From: Sphaerochaeta globosa str. Buddy
GTDB lineage: Bacteria; Spirochaetota; Spirochaetia; Sphaerochaetales; Sphaerochaetaceae
Direction: 5' to 3'
DNA: 64,000 nucleotides
Assembly (NCBI RefSeq): GCF_000190435.1
Contig: NC_015152.1
Location: 1,122,458 to 1,186,457 of the forward strand
Shown here: piece by piece, positions 18,872 through 35,479 of the stretch
How positions within the stretch are numbered: position 1 is the first letter of the stretch
How the letters are laid out: every line of letters starts with the position of its first letter
Notes under the pieces: generated by a model
Seen by the model: only the letters and a program-made list of their open reading frames with translations
What the model was told of the DNA's origin: nothing
The model's database searches: none
Made by a program: the position numbers and the translations under genes

Positions 18872-19936
18872 CTATTCTTGCTTGTTCTTTATCTTGGGTT
18901 GAAGATATGACAAAAACGTTGTCTCATAGCGAAGCGTATGTTTCGGACAAGCATCCACGCAGTGGCCGCAACCTACGCAGCGAGATGAATGAACCGCCAA
19001 GGCTTTGCTTGCTTTTTCTTGGATCGGGATGGAGAGAGGGCAGGCACGGTCGCAGGCACCGCAGCCGATGCAGGAGGTGACATCGGTTCGTATGTGCATT
19101 CTCCCAAGTTTTGACAACAAGGACAGAACAGCTCCCAAGGGGCAAAGGTGGCAATAGAACCTACCGCTTAAGGCAACCCAGAAGGCCATTGCTAGAATGA
19201 GGTTGGCTCCCAGGTACCAGATAAGCTCCAGACCTCGGACGATGGAGATGGTAGATTGCAACACTTCGAAGTAGGGAATGAGCATCCAAAAGAGGGTGAA
19301 TGATAGCGCAAGCACCAGATAGAACATGCGGATATGGGTGACTATCATCAGGGATTTCTTACCCAAAGGTTTGTGTTTCTTGCCGAAAAGAGGGATAGCC
19401 GGGTCGAATATCTCGGCTGCAAACCCGTTGAAGAGGCACAGTGAAGAGCATTGCAATCTTCGGCCGAACAGCACTGTCCCGATTGCAATGAACCCGCTGT
19501 AGACCCAGAAAAAGCGGAGGACGAAGCGGATCCCTCCAAGCCCGAGCGTTTGCAGATGACTTTGGTAGAAGGCTGATCCTTCATAGCTGGCTTGCAAGCC
19601 CAGGGTGGTCCAAGGAAGCGGCATAGCAAAGAAGTAGATTTCAGGGTTGTTGGTTGCTATTGGTAGGACGATGTGCAGAACGAGAGCGGCCAGAAAGAAT
19701 CTTCTCAGATTTTTGTAGCGCATCTCATGGTGCCCTTTTGCCTTGGTGATGCGATAGGTAAGCAGGCCGCAGACAAGGATCAACAAGGTCTTTCCTTCGT
19801 TTTCGTAGGCATGCCAATACGGTGCAACAGCTTTTGCAATCACCTCATTCGAGCCTTGGTTGAGGCCGGCAAGAATGAGACAAAACAGAATGTAAAAAAA
19901 AAGAAGGATGCGTAGCGTTGTTACTTCCCGTTTCAT
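18872..19936 (-). CDS. Membrane 4Fe-4S polyferredoxin (NapH/YccM-like)
   Basis: A 354-residue membrane protein with about six helices and a C-terminal double 4Fe-4S ferredoxin domain on the cytoplasmic side. Visible cysteines: a CSSLCLFNG motif in a loop, GRFYCHLCPLGA (NapH/RsxA-like), then CIGCGACDRACP and CVGCGHCVDACP. Such proteins pass electrons between quinones or flavins and ferredoxins. ATG 19936 is inside the end of the TspO-like gene (ATGA overlap), so the two are translated together. The electron partner cannot be named from this window. Confidence 0.85.
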   Translation of the reverse strand: MKREVTTLRILLFFYILFCLILAGLNQGSNEVIAKAVAPYWHAYENEGKTLLILVCGLLTYRITKAKGHHEMRYKNLRRFFLAALVLHIVLPIATNNPEIYFFAMPLPWTTLGLQASYEGSAFYQSHLQTLGLGGIRFVLRFFWVYSGFIAIGTVLFGRRLQCSSLCLFNGFAAEIFDPAIPLFGKKHKPLGKKSLMIVTHIRMFYLVLALSFTLFWMLIPYFEVLQSTISIVRGLELIWYLGANLILAMAFWVALSGRFYCHLCPLGAVLSLLSKLGRMHIRTDVTSCIGCGACDRACPLSIPIQEKASKALAVHSSRCVGCGHCVDACPKHTLRYETTFLSYLQPKIKNKQE

Positions 19937-23422: not shown

Positions 23423-23460
23423 CAGGACTTGCCACTATTGGCAAGTCCTGTTTGTATTCA
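23423..23460 (+). terminator. Terminator of the oxidative-stress operon
   Basis: CAGGACTTGCCA, loop CTAT, TGGCAAGTCCTG: a perfect 12-bp stem followed by TTTGTATT. It stands between two convergent genes and may act in both directions, though neither side has a long T run. Confidence 0.75.
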
Positions 23461-24222
23461 ACCGACCTTGTTTTCTTTCTCTTCTCCAAGATTGGTCATC
23501 AGGACCTTCAGGCCCTGCGCTTCAAACACCGAGCGGGCCATGCGAAGCTGCTTGGCTGTAGGCTCGGGAACATCCTTGAAGGAGTAGTGCAGTTTCAACT
23601 GCTCCCACTTGTACTGTCCCATCCGATGGTAGGGAAGCAGTTCGATCTGCTCGATGCAGCTGAAGGCTGTAAGAAAGGCTGCCAGTTCTTCTAGCCGTTG
23701 TTCATCGAGTGTCCATCCGGGAACCAACACATGCCTTAGCCATACCTTCTTGCCGATACTTTGGCAGTAGGCAAGGGTGGAGAGGGTGTTTGCATTTCCC
23801 ATTCCGGTAAGGCTGAAGCACAGTTTGTCATCCAAGCTCTTGATATCCAAAAGGATCAAGTCCGCTGCATCCAGCACCGGTTTTGACAGCTCCAAGGGGA
23901 CGCTGCCAGCCGTATCGAGTGCAGTATGAAGACCTTCCTGTTTCAGGCGCTTGAGCAATGCAAGGGCGAACTGTGGCTGCTTCAGCGGCTCGCCGCCGCT
24001 GATGGTAACACCGCCCTTGGCAATGAAATTCCGGTAGCCCAGAATTTCTTGGACCAAATCCTCGCTGTCCGAAAGATTTCCCCCGTTCAGATTCCAGGTA
24101 TCGGGATTATGGCAATACCGGCATCTGAGTGAGCACCCTTGCAAAAACACAACATACCTGAGACCCGGACCATCCAAGGTTCCAAAACTTTCCACGGAGT
24201 GGACAGATCCAATCACTGACAT
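23458..24222 (-). CDS. pflA: Pyruvate formate-lyase activating enzyme
   Basis: A 254-residue radical SAM enzyme that installs the glycyl radical on pyruvate formate-lyase. The CxxxCxxC cluster motif reads CSLRCRYC near residues 30-37, after ESFGTLDGPGLRYVVFLQG, diagnostic of PflA. SAM-binding ISGGEPL follows near 97. It is 9 nt downstream of pflB on the same strand, the usual order, and would be co-transcribed from the pflB promoter. Confidence 0.96.
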   Translation of the reverse strand: MSVIGSVHSVESFGTLDGPGLRYVVFLQGCSLRCRYCHNPDTWNLNGGNLSDSEDLVQEILGYRNFIAKGGVTISGGEPLKQPQFALALLKRLKQEGLHTALDTAGSVPLELSKPVLDAADLILLDIKSLDDKLCFSLTGMGNANTLSTLAYCQSIGKKVWLRHVLVPGWTLDEQRLEELAAFLTAFSCIEQIELLPYHRMGQYKWEQLKLHYSFKDVPEPTAKQLRMARSVFEAQGLKVLMTNLGEEKENKVG

Positions 24223-24231
24223 GGCTTCTCC

Positions 24232-26442
24232 TTACAGGGATTCGTGGAAGGTGCGGTGAATGACATCAAGCTGCTGTTCTCGCGTTAGCTTGATGAAGTT
24301 GACCGCATACCCGCTGACCCTGATCGTCAGCTGGGGATACTTCTCCGGGTGATCCATGGCGTCCAGCAGCGTGCTCTTCTCCATGACGTTCACATTGATG
24401 TGATGGCCCGTCTGGGCAAAGTACCCGTCCATGAGGGTGGTAAGATTGGCAATCTGCATCCCCGTGTTCTTTCCAAGTGTGGAAGGAACAATGGAGAAGG
24501 TGTAACTGATACCATCTTGGGCGTAGGCATACGGTAGCTTCGCTACACTCTTCATGCTGGCAACACAGCCCTTTTGGTCTCTTCCATGCATCGGGTTCGC
24601 TCCCGGTGCAAACGGTTCGCCTGCTTTTCTCCCATCGGGGGTGGAGCCGGTCTTCTTGCCATAGACTACATTGCTGGTGATGGTCAACACTGAAAGGGTG
24701 GGGATGCTCTTTCGGTAGGTGGTGTGCTTCTTCATTTTCTGCATGAAGGACTTCACCAGGTCCCGTGCGATGGCATCGACGCGGTCATCGTCGTTTCCGT
24801 AGGTGGGGTAGGTTCCTTCGATTTCAAAATCAATGGCCAGTCCACTTGCGTCCCTGATCGGCTTCACCTTGGCATACTTGATGGCGGACAGGCTGTCAGC
24901 CACAACGCTCAGACCTGCAATCCCTCCGGCCATGGTTCTGACAATCGCTTCATCGTGCAACGCCATCTCAAGGCGTTCGTAGCTGTATTTGTCATGCATG
25001 AAATGGATGACGTTCAGCGTATCGATATACAGCTTGGCAAGCCAACCGCTCATCGTCTCAAAACGATCAAGAACCGTGGCATAGTCAAGGTACTCGTCCT
25101 GTATGGGGGCGAACTTCGGACCGATCTGCTCACCGCTTTTCTCATCGCGTCCGCCGTTGATGGCATATAGCAAGGTCTTGGCCAAATTTACACGGGCGCC
25201 GAAGAACTGCATCTGCTTTCCGATGCGCATTGCCGAGACGCAGCATGCAATACCATAATCGTCGCCATAGTCGGCTCTCATCAGATCGTCGTTCTCATAC
25301 TGGATCGAGGAGGTTTCAATCGAAAGCTGTGCACAATAGTGCTTGAAGTCCTGAGGCAGGTTCTGGCTCCAAAGGACGGTGAGATTCGGTTCGGGTGCCG
25401 GCCCGAGGTTGGTCAGGCTGTGCAGGAAGCGGTAGCTCATCTTGGTGACCATGTGCCGTCCGTCAACGCATATGCCACCGATCGATTCGGTGACCCAAGT
25501 AGGGTCTCCGCTGAACAGCTGGTCGTACGAGGGGGTTCTCAGGAATCGGATGATTCTGAGTTTCATGATGAAGTGGTCGACCAACTCCTGAATTTCCGCC
25601 TCGCTGAAGGTTCCTTCCTTCAGGTCCCGTTCAGCATAGATGTCAAGGAACGTGGAAATACGGCCAAGGCTCATCGCAGCACCATTCTGTTCCTTGGTTG
25701 CTCCAAGGAAGGCAAAGTAGAGCCACTGGATTGCTTCTTTGGTATTGATCGCAGGCTTGGCGATATCACAGCCGTAGGAAAGGGCCATTTCCTTGAGCTC
25801 GACCAAGGAGCGGATTTGCTCGCTGAGCTCCTCGCGATCACGAATCACGTCCTCGGTCATTGCATCAAACGTATAGGTGCGCTTCGCTTCCTTCTTTTGC
25901 GCTATCAGGTAATCGATTCCGTAGAGGGGAACACGGCGGTAATCACCAATAATTCTTCCCCGCCCGTAGGCGTCGGGAAGGCCGGTGATGATGCCGCTAT
26001 GGCGGACTTTCTTCATTTCATCGGTATAGACATCGAAAACACCGTCATTATGGGTTTTGCGGTAGGTAAAAACCGTATCCACATCCTCGGGCAGGGTTTT
26101 GCCGTAGGCTTCAAGCTCGGTGTGTACCAACCTGATGCCCCCAAAGGGCATGATTGCACGCTTCAGCGGCTGGTCGGTTTGCAGTCCTACTATCTGTTCC
26201 AATTCCTGGTCGATATACCCGTTTTTGTGACTGGTGATGGTGGAGATGGTCTTTTCATCGATATCGTACATGCCGCCTCGTTGGCGTTCAATTGCAAGCA
26301 AATCCTTGAGCTTGTCCCAAAGCTGCACGGTGCGTTGTGTCGGACCCTGCAGGAAGGAAGCATCGCCATCGTAGGGGGTGTAATGCTCAACGATGAAAGC
26401 TCTCGTGTTGATTTCGTACTTCTGGTCTTCTCTATCGTCCAT
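24232..26442 (-). CDS. pflB: Pyruvate formate-lyase (formate C-acetyltransferase)
   Basis: A 736-residue glycyl-radical enzyme converting pyruvate and CoA to acetyl-CoA and formate in anaerobic fermentation. The catalytic cysteine pair is in GIACCVSAM (near residue 399) and the radical glycine in RVSGYAVNF (near 711). Length fits PflB rather than diol dehydratase relatives. GAGGAAA lies upstream of the ATG. A TGTGAT-N4-ATCACA palindrome sits at -41.5 of a predicted promoter, consistent with control by the adjacent CRP/FNR-family regulator. Confidence 0.97.
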
Positions 26443-26530: not shown

Positions 26531-26556
26531 AATTGAGTATTTCACTAGGAGATAGT

Positions 26557-27276
26557 ATGGAAGCGTCCATTCAATGCCAGAGTTGTGTCAATGACCACTG
26601 CATCCGAAGCGTTCCGCTTTTTGCTTCCCTGCAACCTGAAGCGGTACATGCCCTCACTTCCCAAATGGAGCATACAAGCTTTCAGAAAGGGGAAATACTG
26701 ATTCGTGAAGGGGATAGGGCGACCGGCTTCACTGTCATACGGAAAGGAAGCGCCAAAGCCTACCGGACCAATGCTGATGGCAGGGAGCAGATTCTCTATA
26801 TTTTCCCAGCCAACGACTACTATGGTGCACGGTTCCTTTTTACCGAAGAGAGTGTTCCGTATACGGTCGAAGCATTGGAAGAAACCCACGTCTGCATCCT
26901 CAGTAAAGCACAGTTTGCCTCTCTGATTGAGGCGCACAGCTCAGTGGCACTGCAAATCATTGAGGCGATGGCAAATCGGATGAGCCGCCTTGAGACTGCC
27001 ATGCAGAGCATGGGTGGCAGGAATGCTGACTTGAGGATTGCAAGCTTATTGCTCGAGTTCAAAGAGCCGTACGGACACTATAACGGCCCCTATATAGAAA
27101 TAACCCTTCCTCTCAGTAGGGAAGGGTTGGCGAATTACCTCGGATTGGCTCGAGAGACGCTCAGCCGAAAACTGGCTCAATTCGAGAGTGATGGATTGAT
27201 AGAGCAGATCGGGGCCAAGGTGATACGAATTGTGGACCTGCAGCGGTTGGTCAGCCTCTCTGTTATGGTCGACTAA
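26557..27276 (+). CDS. FNR-like oxygen-responsive CRP-family regulator
   Basis: A 239-residue transcription factor with a cyclic-nucleotide-like sensor fold and a C-terminal helix-turn-helix. Cysteines at 7, 10, 15 and 113 are placed much like the four cluster ligands of E. coli FNR (20, 23, 29, 122), so a 4Fe-4S oxygen sensor is predicted. The recognition helix reads ARETLSRKL: Arg-Glu as in CRP and Ser-Arg as in FNR. That fits the GTGAT half-sites found just upstream. AGGAGA precedes ATG 26557. It is divergent from pflB. Confidence 0.87.
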   Translation: MEASIQCQSCVNDHCIRSVPLFASLQPEAVHALTSQMEHTSFQKGEILIREGDRATGFTVIRKGSAKAYRTNADGREQILYIFPANDYYGARFLFTEESVPYTVEALEETHVCILSKAQFASLIEAHSSVALQIIEAMANRMSRLETAMQSMGGRNADLRIASLLLEFKEPYGHYNGPYIEITLPLSREGLANYLGLARETLSRKLAQFESDGLIEQIGAKVIRIVDLQRLVSLSVMVD

Positions 27277-29060: not shown

Positions 29061-30284
29061 ATGGACGATAGAAAAATTGCGAGACTGAAAGAAATCATTG
29101 AGAAACTGCATAGCGGAGTCTCCAGTGATGCGGTGAAGATTGAGTTTGAAGCTGAATTCGGCACCGTAAGTGCAGAAGAATTGGCTGCAGCCGAGCGCAA
29201 GCTAATGGAAAGCGGTGCCATCCAAGTGGAGCAGGTGCAAAAGCTGTGTGATGTCCACGCCTCAGTCTTTGGCTCCAGCATAGAGGAGATTCACCAAGGC
29301 AAGCAGGCTGACAAGACACCGGGCCATCCCGCTTTTGTATTCATCCAGGAAAATGCCGGTTTGACTGAGTTCCTCGATACTGAATTCAGTTCTGCCGTAA
29401 TGGCCTACAAACAGAAGAAAAGTGATGATGCTAAAGCCAATCTTCTTTCTGCATTGAAGAGTTTGAGCAAGCTGGACAAACACTATGCCCGCAAGGAGAA
29501 TCTCTTTTTCCCGTATATGGAGAAGGCCGGCATAACCGCCCCTCCGAAAGTCATGTGGGGAGTGGATGATGAAATTCGGGATCTGTGGAAAGCTGCTATC
29601 CATAGCCTCCAAACTGATGGCAGCGTGCAGGAATCTGTGCTGGATAAGCTACTAGAACAGGTGCACAGCATGATCAACAAGGAGAACAATATCCTTATGC
29701 CGATGCTGCAGGGTGTCATGGATGGTGATGCATGGCTTACTGTCGCCCGTGATAGCGCCGATATCGGTTACTGTTTCAACGGTGGCATTGAGGGGGCAAG
29801 CCCTTCAGATGCTCTTACTTGGTATCGTTGGAATGCAAGCATGAGCGGCAAGCAGGATTTTGCTGTGAAGCAGGAGGACAGCGGTGAAATCGTATTGCCC
29901 AGTGGTCATTTTAACCTCGAGGAATTGACTTGGATGCTCAACACGCTTCCTGGTGATGTTACCTTTGTAGGAGTGGATGACAAAGTCCGGTATTTCAGCG
30001 AGGGCAAGGACAGGGTATTTCCGCGGACTCGCAGCATTGTTGGTCGCGAAGTAGCGTATTGCCATCCTCCCAAGAGCCTTGCAGTTGTACAAAAACTGGT
30101 GGAGGATTTTAAAGCCGGCCTGAAAGACAGTGAATCCTTTTGGATCCAGAAAGGGACCAGCTTCATCCTCATCCGCTATTTTGCCGTACGAAACGAGAAA
30201 CAAGAGTATTTGGGTGTTGTCGAAGTGACCGAAGAAATTTCCTCACTGAGGAGTTTGGAAGGTCAGAAGACACTGCTCAGTTAA
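29061..30284 (+). CDS. DUF438-hemerythrin-PAS protein
   Basis: A 407-residue cytoplasmic protein of the DUF438 family. Order: DUF438 helical domain (1-75), hemerythrin-like four-helix bundle (about 95-230; GHPAFVF, HYARKENLFFPYME and HSMINKENNILMPM supply His/Glu ligands for a di-iron centre), and a PAS-like domain (about 280-400) containing VTFVGVDDKVRYFSEG. Such proteins are thought to sense or bind oxygen or nitric oxide. AAGGAG stands 4-8 nt upstream of the ATG. It is convergent with the polyprenyl synthase/NDH-2 operon. Confidence 0.88.
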   Translation: MDDRKIARLKEIIEKLHSGVSSDAVKIEFEAEFGTVSAEELAAAERKLMESGAIQVEQVQKLCDVHASVFGSSIEEIHQGKQADKTPGHPAFVFIQENAGLTEFLDTEFSSAVMAYKQKKSDDAKANLLSALKSLSKLDKHYARKENLFFPYMEKAGITAPPKVMWGVDDEIRDLWKAAIHSLQTDGSVQESVLDKLLEQVHSMINKENNILMPMLQGVMDGDAWLTVARDSADIGYCFNGGIEGASPSDALTWYRWNASMSGKQDFAVKQEDSGEIVLPSGHFNLEELTWMLNTLPGDVTFVGVDDKVRYFSEGKDRVFPRTRSIVGREVAYCHPPKSLAVVQKLVEDFKAGLKDSESFWIQKGTSFILIRYFAVRNEKQEYLGVVEVTEEISSLRSLEGQKTLLS

Positions 30285-30299
30285 GCAGACGAGTTCTGG

Positions 30300-30322
30300 G
30301 GGAGAGTACTGGCTACTCTCCC
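30300..30322. terminator. Hairpin between convergent genes
   Basis: GGGAGAGTA, loop CTGGC, TACTCTCCC: a perfect 9-bp stem between the DUF438 gene and the 90-residue gene. No long T run on either side, so termination is likely but weak. Confidence 0.5.
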
Positions 30323-30594
30323 TACAGCCCTTTTGGTTGTTTCAGCTGGTTGATGAATGCCAAATAGGCATAGATTTGTCCCTGGATCTCCGCATTCTTC
30401 AAAACGCCCCTGCCGCCCCAATCCTGTCCCTCATAGATGGTGAGGTGGTGAAATTCTCCTTCGAGGTCGATTACATTCAGCGGACTTATTTTCTGCCTAG
30501 TCTCCAAATAAAGCAACGTAGTTTCATATGCTTCACGGAAGGCCTGCTCCTCTCCAGTGAGGTCTGAATCGTAATCATTGTGTGTATTGTTCAT
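30322..30594 (-). CDS. Unknown 90-residue protein downstream of the polyprenyl synthase
   Basis: Not recognised. Soluble and acidic; starts MNNTHNDYDSDLTGEEQ with AGGA 6 nt upstream of ATG 30594. The helix-rich first half (EEQAFREAYETTLLYLETRQ) is followed by HHLTIYEGQDWGGRG and a helical end. It overlaps no other gene, follows the synthase by 7 nt and is the last gene of the NDH-2 operon, so it is likely co-expressed with it. Confidence 0.6.
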   Translation of the reverse strand: MNNTHNDYDSDLTGEEQAFREAYETTLLYLETRQKISPLNVIDLEGEFHHLTIYEGQDWGGRGVLKNAEIQGQIYAYLAFINQLKQPKGL

Positions 30595-30601
30595 GCTGTT
30601 C

Positions 30602-31588
30602 CTATACTGATCGTGTAGATAATTTGGTAAAAAGAGTGCTGAGTTGTCTCTCCACCTGGGGGTGTGCGAGGCGCTTGATATCGGAGAAGGCTCTCTTTTT
30701 GTATGATTCTGCAAGAATTTGAGCTTTTTGTACACCACCCAACGATTCAACCAGAATAAGTGCCTGTTTGACGGTTTTTTCCTTCAGAGGAGTCGAAGCC
30801 TGATACAAAAGATCGTGCAACTGTGTTTGTCCGTTTTCTCGTTCCTGCTTCAGCGCATAGATGAGCGGCAGGGTGGGGATCCCGCACTTGAGGTCATTGC
30901 CTGTATGTTTTCCCAACTTTGAGGAACTGCCTGCATAATCAAGGATGTCGTCCTGGATCTGGAAGGCCATTCCCATGCAGTATCCAATTCGATGGCACAG
31001 CATCTGCCTGGTCGGTTCCGATTCCTGCAGTGCGACACCAGCGTAACAACTTAAGGCAAACAGGCTTGCCGTTTTCCCTGCTATCCGGCGCAGATACGTG
31101 TGATGGGATATAAAAAAGTCGCCTTGGCCTGCATCCTGTTCCAGTTCACTTTCGCAAAGCCGACTCAGTGCACGAGAGACAACCCTGCTGTCCATTCCCC
31201 GTTCCTTGCCGCTGGTTAGCATCAAGGCTTTCGCCAGCAGGAAGTCACCGGCGAGTACTGCCTGTTTGGCTCCCACTTTAGCGAACACCGTCGATTTTCC
31301 CCTGCGTTTTGCAGCGGAGTCAATAATATCGTCGTGGACCAAGGAAGCGAGATGAATCAGCTCAAGAATGGATCCGACTCGTATAGCATCCTCTGTTACT
31401 TCTTGTTCACCCAAGGCACTGGTTATGAGAATCAGGGCGGGACGCAACATTTTCCCCACCGATTGCACATGGTCAAGCAAAATGGGGCGGATAAAGCCGT
31501 GAGCAGTAGCCACCGTGCTCTCGATGGTACTGCTTACGTTCATCAGGTTTTTTTTGAGTTCCTGCTCGTCATCCCAGAAATCGGTCAT
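30602..31588 (-). CDS. Polyprenyl diphosphate synthase (isoprenoid quinone side chain)
   Basis: A 328-residue trans-prenyltransferase. The first aspartate-rich motif is LVHDDIIDSAAKRRGKSTV and the second is QIQDDILDY; GKMLRPAL and AVLAGDFLLAKAL are also conserved. Length fits long-chain (hepta- to nonaprenyl) synthases that make menaquinone tails. It lies 7 nt downstream of the NDH-2 gene on the same strand. In Listeria a similar synthase (DmkB) is part of the extracellular electron transfer locus; the same pairing is seen here. Product length is not readable from sequence. Confidence 0.88.
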   Translation of the reverse strand: MTDFWDDEQELKKNLMNVSSTIESTVATAHGFIRPILLDHVQSVGKMLRPALILITSALGEQEVTEDAIRVGSILELIHLASLVHDDIIDSAAKRRGKSTVFAKVGAKQAVLAGDFLLAKALMLTSGKERGMDSRVVSRALSRLCESELEQDAGQGDFFISHHTYLRRIAGKTASLFALSCYAGVALQESEPTRQMLCHRIGYCMGMAFQIQDDILDYAGSSSKLGKHTGNDLKCGIPTLPLIYALKQERENGQTQLHDLLYQASTPLKEKTVKQALILVESLGGVQKAQILAESYKKRAFSDIKRLAHPQVERQLSTLFTKLSTRSV

Positions 31589-31594
31589 GCCTTC

Positions 31595-33700
31595 CTACTT
31601 TTTCCCGAGTTTCCGTTCCATCTGTCGTTTGGTGAACTCAGGTTCATCGAGATAGAAGTAGGTTTTCTTGGCAAGAGGAGTCTTATTCCACAGCCTCTTC
31701 AGGTAGGGCATCACCCAATAGTCCAGACCGAAGGCCTTACCGGCTCCTCCGAGCATGATAATGGAGACTGCCATGTACCAAAGAATCTCCTTGCCTGCAA
31801 GAGCTCCTATGAGGAACATAATCGACAGGCCGATGGAGACAATGGCTGCAGGGAAGGTAAACAGGCCTGCAAAGAGGGCAAGTCCGATACCGACTTCAGC
31901 GAGTACGATCATCAATTGGAACAGATACGGAGCCTGAGCCACAAAGGTATCGTTGATCCAGGTAAAGATAGCCAACGGCTCGGAAAGCAGGGGAGGTGCA
32001 AATTGCTTGACAGCGCCGGTTTCAGCCAAGGCTTGGCTGACAGAGGCAACGGTATCGACTACCGTTTGGCTGGCGGATGCCGCAGTTTCGACAACCCACT
32101 GGGTGGCTGAGGAGGAAGCTTCAACAGCACTTTGGCTGGCAGATGCAACAGCTTGCACCACTGGCTGACTGGAGTATGCAGCAGTCTGGCTTACGGAGGC
32201 TACGCTATCGGCAACAGCCTGACTTGCTGAGGCAACTGTTTCAGCAACACTTTGGCTTGCTGAAGCCCAGGCATCGGCGATGCCATCGGCTTTTGGGGCA
32301 CCCCAATAGACTTTTGAACCGGTGGTGTCGGTAAGCCAGCCGTCCTTGATCTTGCCGATTCCTTCGATGAACCACATTACACCCAGATACATTCTGAGGA
32401 AGGTCGTCCAGTAGGAGGGAACCTTGTAGGAAGCCAAGCCTCCGATAAGGGAGCGGTTGTGTCTGATTTCCAAAATTTCGTGTTTGATATACGCCCAAGC
32501 ACCGTTGACGCCGCAGACTCCGCTCTGATAGTAAATGTTTACCATATGCTTGAGGGCCATGGCAAAGAACCCTGACAAAGACATTCCTGCGGTATGGCTG
32601 ACTGCATAGGTTCCCCCGATGGAGACCATGAAGCCGTGGAAATTTGACTTGAACGGTTTGGGATGCTCGGTTTTCAGGCCGAGTTCACTCTTTATTGCAT
32701 AGGCAACGCCATCGGCGGCAGTCTTTGCAGTCTGCTCGGCGGCTTCGACAATCTGGGGCACTGCACGATTGTTTTCCAAGAACCACATACCATCACCGAC
32801 TAAGTAGACGTTCTGGTAGTCAGGGCTCTGCATATATTCATTCACAAGCTTTCTGCCGATTTTTCCATCGGTAAGGGGAAGCTTTTCACAAAATTCGGTG
32901 CCGCGAACTCCACAGGTCCAGACCAGTGTCTTGGTCTTGATCACTTCACCGCTCTTGATCGAGAAGCCTTCTGCATCGACTTGGGTGATCAGGGAGTTGA
33001 GCTTAATCTCCACACCCTTCTTCTCAAGGTATTTGACGGCTTTGGCACGAGGCTTTTCCGGCAACATATTCAGGATGCTTCCCAATGCCTCAGCACTGAT
33101 CAGCTTGCCTTCTTTTTTAAAGTCAATACCATTTTCCTTGCAAAGGATGGGCAGCCATTCAATCAATTCACCTACCAGCTCAATGCCGGTGAATCCGCCT
33201 CCGGCTACAACGAAGGTAAGCATCTGCTTGCGCTTCTCAGGGTCCGCTTCGCGGCTTGCATCCTTGACTACCTGCTCAATGTGGCAGCGGATGCGTAGTG
33301 CGTCCTCGAGACTCCACAGGTAGAAGGCATGCTCCTTGACACCGGGAATATTGAAGTCGGCAGTGGTGGCGCCGGTACCGATGATCAGCTGGTCATAGGA
33401 GTAATGGGCCCGTTCGCCTTTGAGGGTTTGATTCTTGAAATCAATGGTGGCAATGGTATCCTGTACTACCTTGACCATTTTGCCGGCGAATATGCGGTCG
33501 AAGGAAATTTTAACTGAATCTTCTTCGACTCGGTTTCCTGCAACTTCATGCAGTTCCGTCATGAGAATGTGGTGGCGGCCCTTATCGATCAAGGTAATCT
33601 CTACCTTGTCTTGGTGTTTCCTGAATGCTTTGTGCAAGGTTTTTGCAGCGTGTACTCCGGCGTATCCCCCGCCTAATACCACAATCTGTTTCTTGTCCAT
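31595..33700 (-). CDS. Type II NADH dehydrogenase fused to a DoxX-like membrane domain
   Basis: A 701-residue protein. Residues 1-405 are an NDH-2 flavoprotein: VVLGGGYAGVHAAKTL binds FAD, VVAGGGFTGIELVGEL binds NADH, and VYLVGDG with a quinone-site PQIVEAAEQ follow. From about 425 there is a DoxX-like membrane part: one helix (FLRMYLGVMWFIEGIGK), a loop holding eight 11-residue repeats (about 478-560), then three helices. Start ATG 33700 has AAGGAAGG upstream. NDH-2 enzymes oxidise NADH and reduce quinone without pumping protons; Listeria Ndh2 also carries an added membrane extension. The operon continues with the polyprenyl synthase. Confidence 0.9.
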   Translation of the reverse strand: MDKKQIVVLGGGYAGVHAAKTLHKAFRKHQDKVEITLIDKGRHHILMTELHEVAGNRVEEDSVKISFDRIFAGKMVKVVQDTIATIDFKNQTLKGERAHYSYDQLIIGTGATTADFNIPGVKEHAFYLWSLEDALRIRCHIEQVVKDASREADPEKRKQMLTFVVAGGGFTGIELVGELIEWLPILCKENGIDFKKEGKLISAEALGSILNMLPEKPRAKAVKYLEKKGVEIKLNSLITQVDAEGFSIKSGEVIKTKTLVWTCGVRGTEFCEKLPLTDGKIGRKLVNEYMQSPDYQNVYLVGDGMWFLENNRAVPQIVEAAEQTAKTAADGVAYAIKSELGLKTEHPKPFKSNFHGFMVSIGGTYAVSHTAGMSLSGFFAMALKHMVNIYYQSGVCGVNGAWAYIKHEILEIRHNRSLIGGLASYKVPSYWTTFLRMYLGVMWFIEGIGKIKDGWLTDTTGSKVYWGAPKADGIADAWASASQSVAETVASASQAVADSVASVSQTAAYSSQPVVQAVASASQSAVEASSSATQWVVETAASASQTVVDTVASVSQALAETGAVKQFAPPLLSEPLAIFTWINDTFVAQAPYLFQLMIVLAEVGIGLALFAGLFTFPAAIVSIGLSIMFLIGALAGKEILWYMAVSIIMLGGAGKAFGLDYWVMPYLKRLWNKTPLAKKTYFYLDEPEFTKRQMERKLGKK
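32018..32266 (-). repeat. Eight 11-residue repeats in the NDH-2/DoxX loop
   Basis: The encoded units follow A-S-x-S-Q-x-x-x-x-x-x (for example ASASQSVAETV, ASASQAVADSV, ASASQTVVDTV). The pattern is 11 residues long, diverged at DNA level, and interrupted once near the middle. Hendecads usually form long amphipathic or coiled helices. Confidence 0.85.
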
Positions 33701-34168
33701 TGTTCCTTCCTTAATGACCCTTGTAGGCAAGGGCTTGCAATATGGTAATTTCGGTATTGCGTTGCAACCAGGCTCATTTTCAGATGTACAGTCACGGAAC
33801 CTTTTTGCTTTGGCAGAAAAACACTCTAGCACAGAAGTAGGATTTTATGCAATTGTGTCCTTTTTTATCGAATATAGTTTTCCACATTTTCTTCATTAGC
33901 GCCATACTCTAGGAGGTAAAAAAACAAAAAATCTCTTTGGGAAACAATTTATTATGAAAGTCCATAAAAAAAATAAATCGATATTTTTATATCAAAGTAA
34001 AGTAATCGGATTACTTGTCAAAAGAACTCTATATATTACAATTACTTAACAAGATATAGTAGTAATTGCGAATGTATATTGATAATTTTAGGACGATATT
34101 GCAAAGGTGTAATAAATCTGTATATGATTATATGTAAGAATGTTGATATTACCTAGGAGTACATGACC
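33701..34168. other. AT-rich divergent intergenic region between NDH-2 and the FMN-binding-like lipoprotein
   Basis: No gene seen. The stretch is much richer in A and T than its surroundings, especially after 33900. It must hold the promoters for both divergent genes. I find no single convincing -35/-10 pair. It contains the ATTACT/AGTAAT inverted repeats listed separately. Confidence 0.6.
34000..34068. promoter_or_regulatory. Cluster of AGTAAT/ATTACT inverted repeats
   Basis: A perfect 17-bp palindrome AAGTAATC-G-GATTACTT at 34000-34016, followed by CAATTACT (34039-34046) and AGTAATTG (34061-34068), which pair with each other. Four copies of the same six-base core within 70 bp suggest operator sites. 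Confidence 0.5.
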
Positions 34169-35479
34169 ATGAGAAAGAACGTGTTTGCTGTTCTTGCAGC
34201 AGTTGTTTTGATCTCTCTGTTCGTCTTCACCGGCTGTTCGAAGTCTGAAGCGAAAACCGCGACCCCGGCTCCCGCTGCCGCCCCGGCTGTGGCCGCACCG
34301 GCTCCCGTTGCACCAGCACCTGCCCCGGCTGTGGCCGCTGCAAAGTATGCTGATGGCATCTATTTTGCCGCCGACGATGCTTTCGCCTCTTCAGGTTGGA
34401 AGGAAACTGTGACCTTGACCGTTTCTGGTGGGAAGATTGTCGAAGCTGATTGGAACGCTGTCAACGTTTCCGGCGGTGCTGACAAGAAGACCTATGATAA
34501 GGCTGGAAAGTATAACATGGTCAAGTTTGGTAAGGCTCAGGCTGAGTGGTACCAACAGGCAGAGAAGGCCGAGGCCCACCTGCTGAAGACCCAGGATCCC
34601 GCACAGATCAGTTACAAGGACAGCGAAGGCCACACCGATGACATCGCTGGCGTTTCTGTACACGTGAATGCTTTCTTTGAACTTGCCGCCAAGGCTTTGG
34701 CTGCCGGTCCTGTCGGTCGCGGATCGTATGCCGATGGTGCATACTTCGCCATCGATGCAAGCTATCCCTCTTCCGGTTGGAAGGAATATGTCTCCTTGAC
34801 CGTTCTCAACGGCCGCATCGCCAGCGTTAACTGGAGTGCTGTGAACCGCAATGGCGACGACAAGAAGGCCTACGACAAGGCTGGAAAGTACAACATGGTC
34901 AAGTTCGGCAAGGCCCAGGATGAGTGGTATGTTCAGGCCCAGAAGACTGAGGAGTACTTGCTCAAGACCCAGGACCTCACTGCCATCACCTACAAGGATG
35001 ATGCCGGCCACACCGATGATATCGCAGGAGTATCGGTTCACGTGAACCCCCTCTTCGACCTCGTCAAGAAGGCTTTGGACAACGGTCCTGTCGGTCTCGG
35101 ACCCTTTGCCAACGGCGGATACTATGCCACCGAGGAAGCCTTCGGCTCATCGGGCTGGAAGGGATTTGCCTCACTGTTCGTAAGCAACGGCAACCTCGTC
35201 AACGTATACTGGAGTGCCGTGGACAAGGACAACCGTGACAAGCAGACAGTTGCTGCTGAAGGCGGCTACGGCATGCTCAAGGCAAGCAAGATCGGCAAGG
35301 AATGGCACGAGCAGGCTGTGGTTGTTCAGAACCATCTCCTCTCCACCCAGGATCCCAAGAAGATCACCTACAAGGACGATGCCGGTCATACCGACGACAT
35401 CGCCGGAGCCAGCGTTCACGTAAATGACTTCTATGCCTTGGTTGAGAAAGCTCTCGCCAATGGAGTAAAGAAGTACTAA
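34169..35479 (+). CDS. Lipoprotein with three FMN-binding-like repeats (PplA-like)
   Basis: A 436-residue lipoprotein. Start ATG 34169 is preferred (AGGAG 9 nt upstream; ATG 34163 would be only 3 nt away). Lipobox FVFTGC is followed by an Ala/Pro tether of about 35 residues and three tandem modules of about 120 residues. Each has SSGWK near its start, a Tyr/Lys-rich middle, and ends with GHTDDIAGVSVHVN (third copy GASVHVN). This resembles the D-x-x-SGA-(S/T) site where ApbE-type enzymes attach FMN, as in Listeria PplA. Predicted role: surface electron carrier. Flavin attachment is inferred, and no ApbE gene lies in this window. Confidence 0.75.
   Translation: MRKNVFAVLAAVVLISLFVFTGCSKSEAKTATPAPAAAPAVAAPAPVAPAPAPAVAAAKYADGIYFAADDAFASSGWKETVTLTVSGGKIVEADWNAVNVSGGADKKTYDKAGKYNMVKFGKAQAEWYQQAEKAEAHLLKTQDPAQISYKDSEGHTDDIAGVSVHVNAFFELAAKALAAGPVGRGSYADGAYFAIDASYPSSGWKEYVSLTVLNGRIASVNWSAVNRNGDDKKAYDKAGKYNMVKFGKAQDEWYVQAQKTEEYLLKTQDLTAITYKDDAGHTDDIAGVSVHVNPLFDLVKKALDNGPVGLGPFANGGYYATEEAFGSSGWKGFASLFVSNGNLVNVYWSAVDKDNRDKQTVAAEGGYGMLKASKIGKEWHEQAVVVQNHLLSTQDPKKITYKDDAGHTDDIAGASVHVNDFYALVEKALANGVKKY

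Follow-up and report, generated by a model that had tools for sequence, protein, structure and literature searches.

A probable core of Listeria-type flavin-based electron export in Sphaerochaeta globosa, with an altered flavinylation motif in its lipoprotein

The window analysed here (a stretch of 64,000 nucleotides from the chromosome of Sphaerochaeta globosa str. Buddy) quite probably contains the central part of a spirochaete version of the Listeria-type system for flavin-based electron export, the remaining parts being located elsewhere on the chromosome. The FLEET/EET locus of Listeria monocytogenes was reportedly described by Light et al. in 2018; the record used for comparison is from a plasmid collection. 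The locus occupies genome positions ~1152779-1157936, and the window lies inside one 3.32 Mb contig. The three genes which a sequence-only reading of this DNA had likened to DmkB, Ndh2 and PplA of Listeria were all found in place, and are listed in Table 1 together with the related genes found elsewhere in the genome. The assignment is supported directly by gene identities, synteny, co-occurrence and acceptor conservation. It draws on homology to the Listeria parts, observed by BLAST for Ndh2, DmkB, FmnB and EetB, via PF07009 for EetA, and via MenA models and the Enterococcus MenA genes for DmkA, as well as on the contiguous gene set of sister genera, the tracking of the lipoprotein by UbiA, the acceptors present in 99 of 99 modules and the pairing of Ndh2 with DmkB. 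What counts against it is that the consensus DxxSGA[ST] is not kept, that the PplA and FMN_bind cut-offs are missed, and that MenD and MqnA/D were not found.

The flavinylation, quinone import, electron flow and acceptor that we infer from these parts can be outlined as follows. Ndh2 would oxidise cytosolic NADH and reduce a membrane quinone, whose isoprenoid tail would be made by DmkB and joined by the single MenA/DmkA-like enzyme to a naphthoate head group, the latter probably obtained from the surroundings. From the quinol, electrons would move to the FMN carried by the three lipoprotein modules, and the tethered lipoprotein would hand them to an acceptor outside the cytoplasmic membrane. 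FAD would be exported by EetB/FmnA, and the covalent attachment of FMN to Ser165, Ser291 and Ser417 would be the task of the FmnB-like ApbE.

Table 1. Features of the candidate locus and of related genes in the genome (window positions unless marked genome).
Feature	Position	Strand	Basis or remark
s90, conserved 90-residue protein	30322..30594	-	predicted three-helix fold
DmkB-like polyprenyl diphosphate synthase	30602..31588	-	PF00348 4e-59; 35% to Listeria DmkB
Ndh2, NDH-2 core and C-terminal membrane tail	31595..33700	-	PF07992, PDB, Listeria alignment
Divergent intergenic region, ndh2 / lipoprotein gene	33701..34162		conserved stretches in relatives
PplA-like lipoprotein, 438 aa	34163..35479	+	NF041941 2e-25; PDB 2kzx 1.5e-39
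Module 1, predicted acceptor Ser165 in DDIAGVS	34655..34657	+	motif alignment
Module 2, predicted acceptor Ser291 in DDIAGVS	35033..35035	+	motif alignment
Module 3, predicted acceptor Ser417 in DDIAGAS	35411..35413	+	motif alignment
EetB/FmnA-like fusion, 369 residues	genome 1038075-1039181		PF07456 2e-33
EetA (NusG_II)	genome 1039171-1039545		PF07009 6e-19
ApbE1, FmnB-like ApbE lipoprotein	genome 1062240-1063283		PF02424 3e-93; 41% to Listeria FmnB
UbiA, MenA/DmkA-like prenyltransferase	genome 1752891-1753802		single UbiA in genome
ApbE2	genome 2760147-2761124		

The ndh2, DmkB and s90 genes form a tight operon (gaps of 6-7 bp, with 6 bp between ndh2 and DmkB) from which the lipoprotein gene diverges, as the sequence-only reading had proposed. 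This layout is kept in at least 17 further genomes, which indicates that the arrangement is not due to chance. The start of Ndh2 was reassigned from GTG 33832 to ATG 33700 (701 instead of 745 residues), since relatives share the latter and a Shine-Dalgarno sequence precedes it. The NDH-2 core (approximately residues 1-410) matches PF07992 (2e-36), and the best PDB relative is the NDH-2 from Caldalkalibacillus (3e-59). The C-terminal membrane tail, into which an Ala/Ser-rich linker of varying length is inserted, gives weak matches to DoxX and DoxD, and its AlphaFold model has a confidence too low to interpret (pLDDT <50). A fusion to DoxX had been taken as the mark of a distinct version of the system, but this tail is also present in Listeria Ndh2, which by itself exceeds the DoxX cut-off. 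Indeed, the two proteins are 38.5% identical over residues 1-669 of 701 (BLAST, 4e-140), and the motif GAG[R/K]xFGLDYW closes the tail in both. The tail is homologous to that of Listeria Ndh2 and was rejected as a distinguishing feature. In the Ndh2 tree, the Sphaerochaetaceae form one clade (100/99) among the Spirochaetia and Listeria/Enterococcus are separate; a recent transfer from Firmicutes is unsupported by this tree, in which Firmicutes are represented by three rows only. The Ndh2 of another spirochaete (G434, locus L124) clusters with that of Acetoanaerobium, which may reflect a transfer between phyla, and is encoded in a compact operon ApbE-Ndh2-DmkB-UbiA. In two further loci (L121 and L126, in G407 and G391), the open frames around Ndh2 run to 1016 and 887 residues, which suggests missed starts or longer fusions.

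The 90-residue gene noticed at the end of the operon is real, considering its conservation: 20 of its residues are invariant among 18 orthologues. Its core, GQDWxGRG, is invariant and the three-helix prediction has a pLDDT of 86, while searches of Pfam, NCBIfam and the PDB for a family or fold gave no match. In most Sphaerochaetaceae loci its gene comes after DmkB, and a role as partner of DmkB or Ndh2 is a guess. Its neighbour in the window (29061-30284), conserved within the genus, is a DUF438-hemerythrin-PAS protein, a possible redox or oxygen sensor. A CRP/FNR-type regulator (26533-27276) lies beside a pyruvate formate-lyase-like glycyl-radical enzyme and its activase (23458-26442), and this block adjoins the electron-export locus in most Sphaerochaeta genomes. 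An FNR-type box was sought in the divergent promoter: none was found in this genome, and few matches in relatives.

Within the genus Sphaerochaeta, the lipoprotein gene lies beside Ndh2-DmkB-s90 and is read in the opposite direction, away from it. Sister genera have EetA, EetB, FmnA-like and ApbE genes in the space between these two units, giving the contiguous set lipoprotein - EetA - EetB - FmnA - ApbE - Ndh2 - DmkB, and in one genus (g13) a UbiA gene adjoins the lipoprotein gene. Since these four genes sit between the lipoprotein and Ndh2 in the sister genera, the gene order is most simply read as the break-up, in the genus Sphaerochaeta, of a once complete locus, which would have left a dispersed FLEET locus. 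Among the 124 genomes of the order, UbiA is found in 33 of the 35 with the lipoprotein and in 3 of the 89 without it (Fisher 3e-24, shared ancestry ignored). One of these three exceptions, G085, has Ndh2, and is therefore likely due to an assembly gap. Across the phylum, a strong Ndh2 match was obtained in 62 of 393 sampled Spirochaetota genomes (42 of 161 genera); Ndh2 adjoins DmkB in all 20 loci sampled from across the phylum, often together with UbiA, ApbE or Eet genes. The gene set is widespread in spirochaetes.

That no ApbE or DmkA gene lies in the window was borne out, and a search of the whole genome for ApbE/FmnB, DmkA/MenA and EetA/B, which the sequence-only reading had suggested, located homologues of all of them outside it. 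The genome contains two ApbE genes, and the ApbE proteins within sister-genus loci are 53-61% identical to ApbE1 and 36-40% to ApbE2. The EetB/FmnA gene, encoding the sole PF07456 protein in the genome, is found directly after the EetA-like NusG_II gene; its product consists of an EetB part (28% identical to Listeria EetB by BLAST) and then a part matching the FmnA-like protein of relatives. The UbiA protein matches DHNA polyprenyltransferase models (9e-53), yet stays under the curated cut-offs. It is 34% identical to an Enterococcus MenA from a FLEET locus, and BLAST against Listeria DmkA, whose frame is interrupted in the record used, gave an E value of 0.3. Other redox genes include an Nqr-like set (B to F type) that is not preceded by an obvious NqrA (L044 7959-11812; G000 2235958-2239811), and a separate Rnf set (L046). 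A NapH-like membrane protein with a C-terminal 4Fe-4S pair and a Fer4_5 segment is encoded in the window (18872-19930, minus strand); NapH-like proteins can hand quinol electrons to FMN_bind domains.

Concerning the lack of a flavin transferase and of a quinone pathway, which had been named as evidence that would speak against the locus, ApbE, a MenA-like enzyme and DmkB are present, whereas MenD and MqnA/D were not found; the quinone half of this objection holds in part. MenD had no match above the curated cut-off in any genome of the order (matches below it are probably other TPP enzymes), and MqnA/D had none in this genome. With MenA-like and DmkB-like enzymes present and MenD and MqnA/D not found, the head group is probably scavenged or imported, by analogy with Lactiplantibacillus plantarum, whose FLEET pathway uses exogenous DHNA and which cannot make its own quinone (PMC8837199, PMC10746273).

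The prediction of a tethered lipoprotein with repeated FMN-binding-like modules was confirmed by a lipobox (FVFTGC), an Ala/Pro tether and three FMN_bind-type modules of approximately 125 residues each. In profile searches it scored 89.5 bits with the NCBIfam PplA model, below the curated cut-off of 325, and 17.5 bits with Pfam FMN_bind (PF04205), for which the cut-off of 22 is passed by related lipoproteins with the canonical motif (59.8, 46.2 and 26.6 bits). Its modules match a solved domain in the PDB (2kzx). Identity to Listeria PplA is 27% over part of the protein (6e-6), far more diverged than for Ndh2, and in same-genus genomes the lipoprotein is alignable in most, at 58-96%.

The published ApbE target, as given in PMC12052999, is D-x-x-[S/T]-G-A-[S/T], which is matched by none of the three modules, although the Asp, the Gly and the acceptor hydroxyl are retained. 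In 40 lipoprotein ORFs, 105 pattern matches were obtained, of which 6 were spurious by context, leaving 99 real modules. The acceptor position is Ser in 81 and Thr in 18 of them, hence a hydroxyl residue in 99 of 99, encoded by TCN, AGY and ACN codons; in most modules the first motif Ser is replaced by Ala, and the Ala preceding the acceptor by Val. Related lipoproteins from other spirochaetes have SGVS, SGVT or SGAT at the motif. Five proteins in this genome are above the FMN_bind cut-off, and the other FMN_bind proteins have a normal or near-normal motif, except for RnfG (L046 6832-7386), where the region reads AVGGSS, a further departure from SGAT. A lipoprotein of the same family in genome G075 (L060 8901-10217) carries three canonical SGAT motifs and has no Ndh2 nearby, possibly reflecting the ancestral state or a different partner. 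The altered flavinylation motif is a real departure of this locus, which the earlier reading overlooked. In model substrates, an Ala-to-Val change left approximately 50% of flavinylation and a Thr-to-Ser change cost just 10-55% of it (PMC12052999); these mutants carry single changes, and the loss of the first Ser is additional here. Since the acceptor hydroxyl is invariant and single changes lower flavinylation rather than abolish it, the alignments suggest serine flavinylation by a matched, co-adapted ApbE as the favoured reading of the changed motif.

Each of these gene classes is common alone, and family matches alone are no proof of a pathway, so that isoprenoid synthesis, a lone NDH-2 and a lipoprotein could be imagined as unrelated housekeeping genes in a chance neighbourhood. 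The synteny across many genera, the complete clusters in relatives and the full-length match to Listeria Ndh2 make this hardly credible, and the conserved synteny already refutes it. It is also improbable that the modules have lost their covalent flavin, the lipoprotein then having a binding or structural role and Ndh2, DmkB and UbiA alone forming a quinone-dependent NADH-oxidising route. Such a loss would fit the degenerate motif in all three modules, the Pfam FMN_bind score under the cut-off and the canonical motif retained in the solved homologue 2kzx, but not the acceptor hydroxyl, invariant in 99 modules despite drifting neighbours, nor the dedicated ApbE which sister genera keep beside such lipoproteins; moreover, model substrates tolerate the Ala-to-Val and Thr-to-Ser changes in part (PMC12052999).

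Where the electrons would go is a separate matter, as a lipoprotein in a diderm may face the periplasm, in which case the acceptor would not be extracellular. An inner-membrane lipoprotein could feed a soluble periplasmic reductase or free flavin instead of minerals or electrodes outside, an alternative we consider unlikely. In its favour, an outer membrane is part of the spirochaete envelope, neither the locus nor its relatives revealed a conduit across it, and periplasmic reductases are often served by FMN_bind proteins (PMC8238504). Nevertheless, the gene set corresponds to that of Listeria EET and not to those of NapH, Rnf or Nqr systems, a long tether bearing three modules is better suited to reaching out than to docking on one enzyme, and the locus has no conserved reductase gene next to it. 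The more specific proposal of a diderm electron export with a dedicated ApbE, serine acceptors in a relaxed AG[V/A]S motif, a three-flavin lipoprotein and a scavenged quinone head group is tentative, and in our view falls just short of an even chance. If it is true, fermenting spirochaetes of sediments and digesters could dump electrons outside the cell while relying on other microbes for naphthoate, and a pathway described in Gram-positives would reach cells with an outer membrane. If the relaxed motif is functional, motif-based surveys of flavinylated proteins would miss substrates.

As in the present locus, PplA of Listeria is divergent from ndh2 and DmkB ends the ndh2 operon; the Ndh2 tail and homologues of ApbE/FmnB, EetA, EetB, FmnA and DmkA are likewise common to both. 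The locus described here differs in having three modules where Listeria has two, a DDIAG[V/A]S motif in place of DxxSGA[T/S] (DxxSGAT in Listeria), dispersed ApbE, Eet and DmkA genes, EetB fused to an FmnA-like part, the extra s90 and a diderm envelope, and head-group synthesis (MenD, MqnA/D) was not found. The FLEET system of L. plantarum is similar in belonging to a fermenter with Ndh2, a PplA-type protein and prenyl-transfer genes but no quinone synthesis of its own, although that organism is a monoderm with a canonical PplA, and its use of DHNA, shown there, is inferred here. The 2kzx structure corresponds to the same module over its full length, as a single domain, but keeps the canonical DAISGAT. 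According to the available part of PMC10339131, SaFMN3 and CbFMN4 also combine several covalent-FMN modules (predicted in our case) with flexible linkers and a membrane anchor, but their motifs are DxxxGAT and their FMN load is proven, and they are flanked by their own flavin transferase genes with no tie to Ndh2. Genes for Ndh2, DmkA/B, EetA/B, FmnB and PplA were listed in 2022 for a Sphaerochaetaceae MAG, OKU10, the accessible portion of that paper being a gene list without locus anatomy, motif or distribution (PMC8921683), and the distribution of EET systems over the phyla was charted in the figures of a 2021 survey (PMC8238504). Our literature search found no paper linking spirochaetes, extracellular electron transfer and flavinylated proteins. 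The locus thus appears to be a variant of a known system, in which the relaxed motif, the dispersal of the genes and the scope among spirochaetes seem to be new here.
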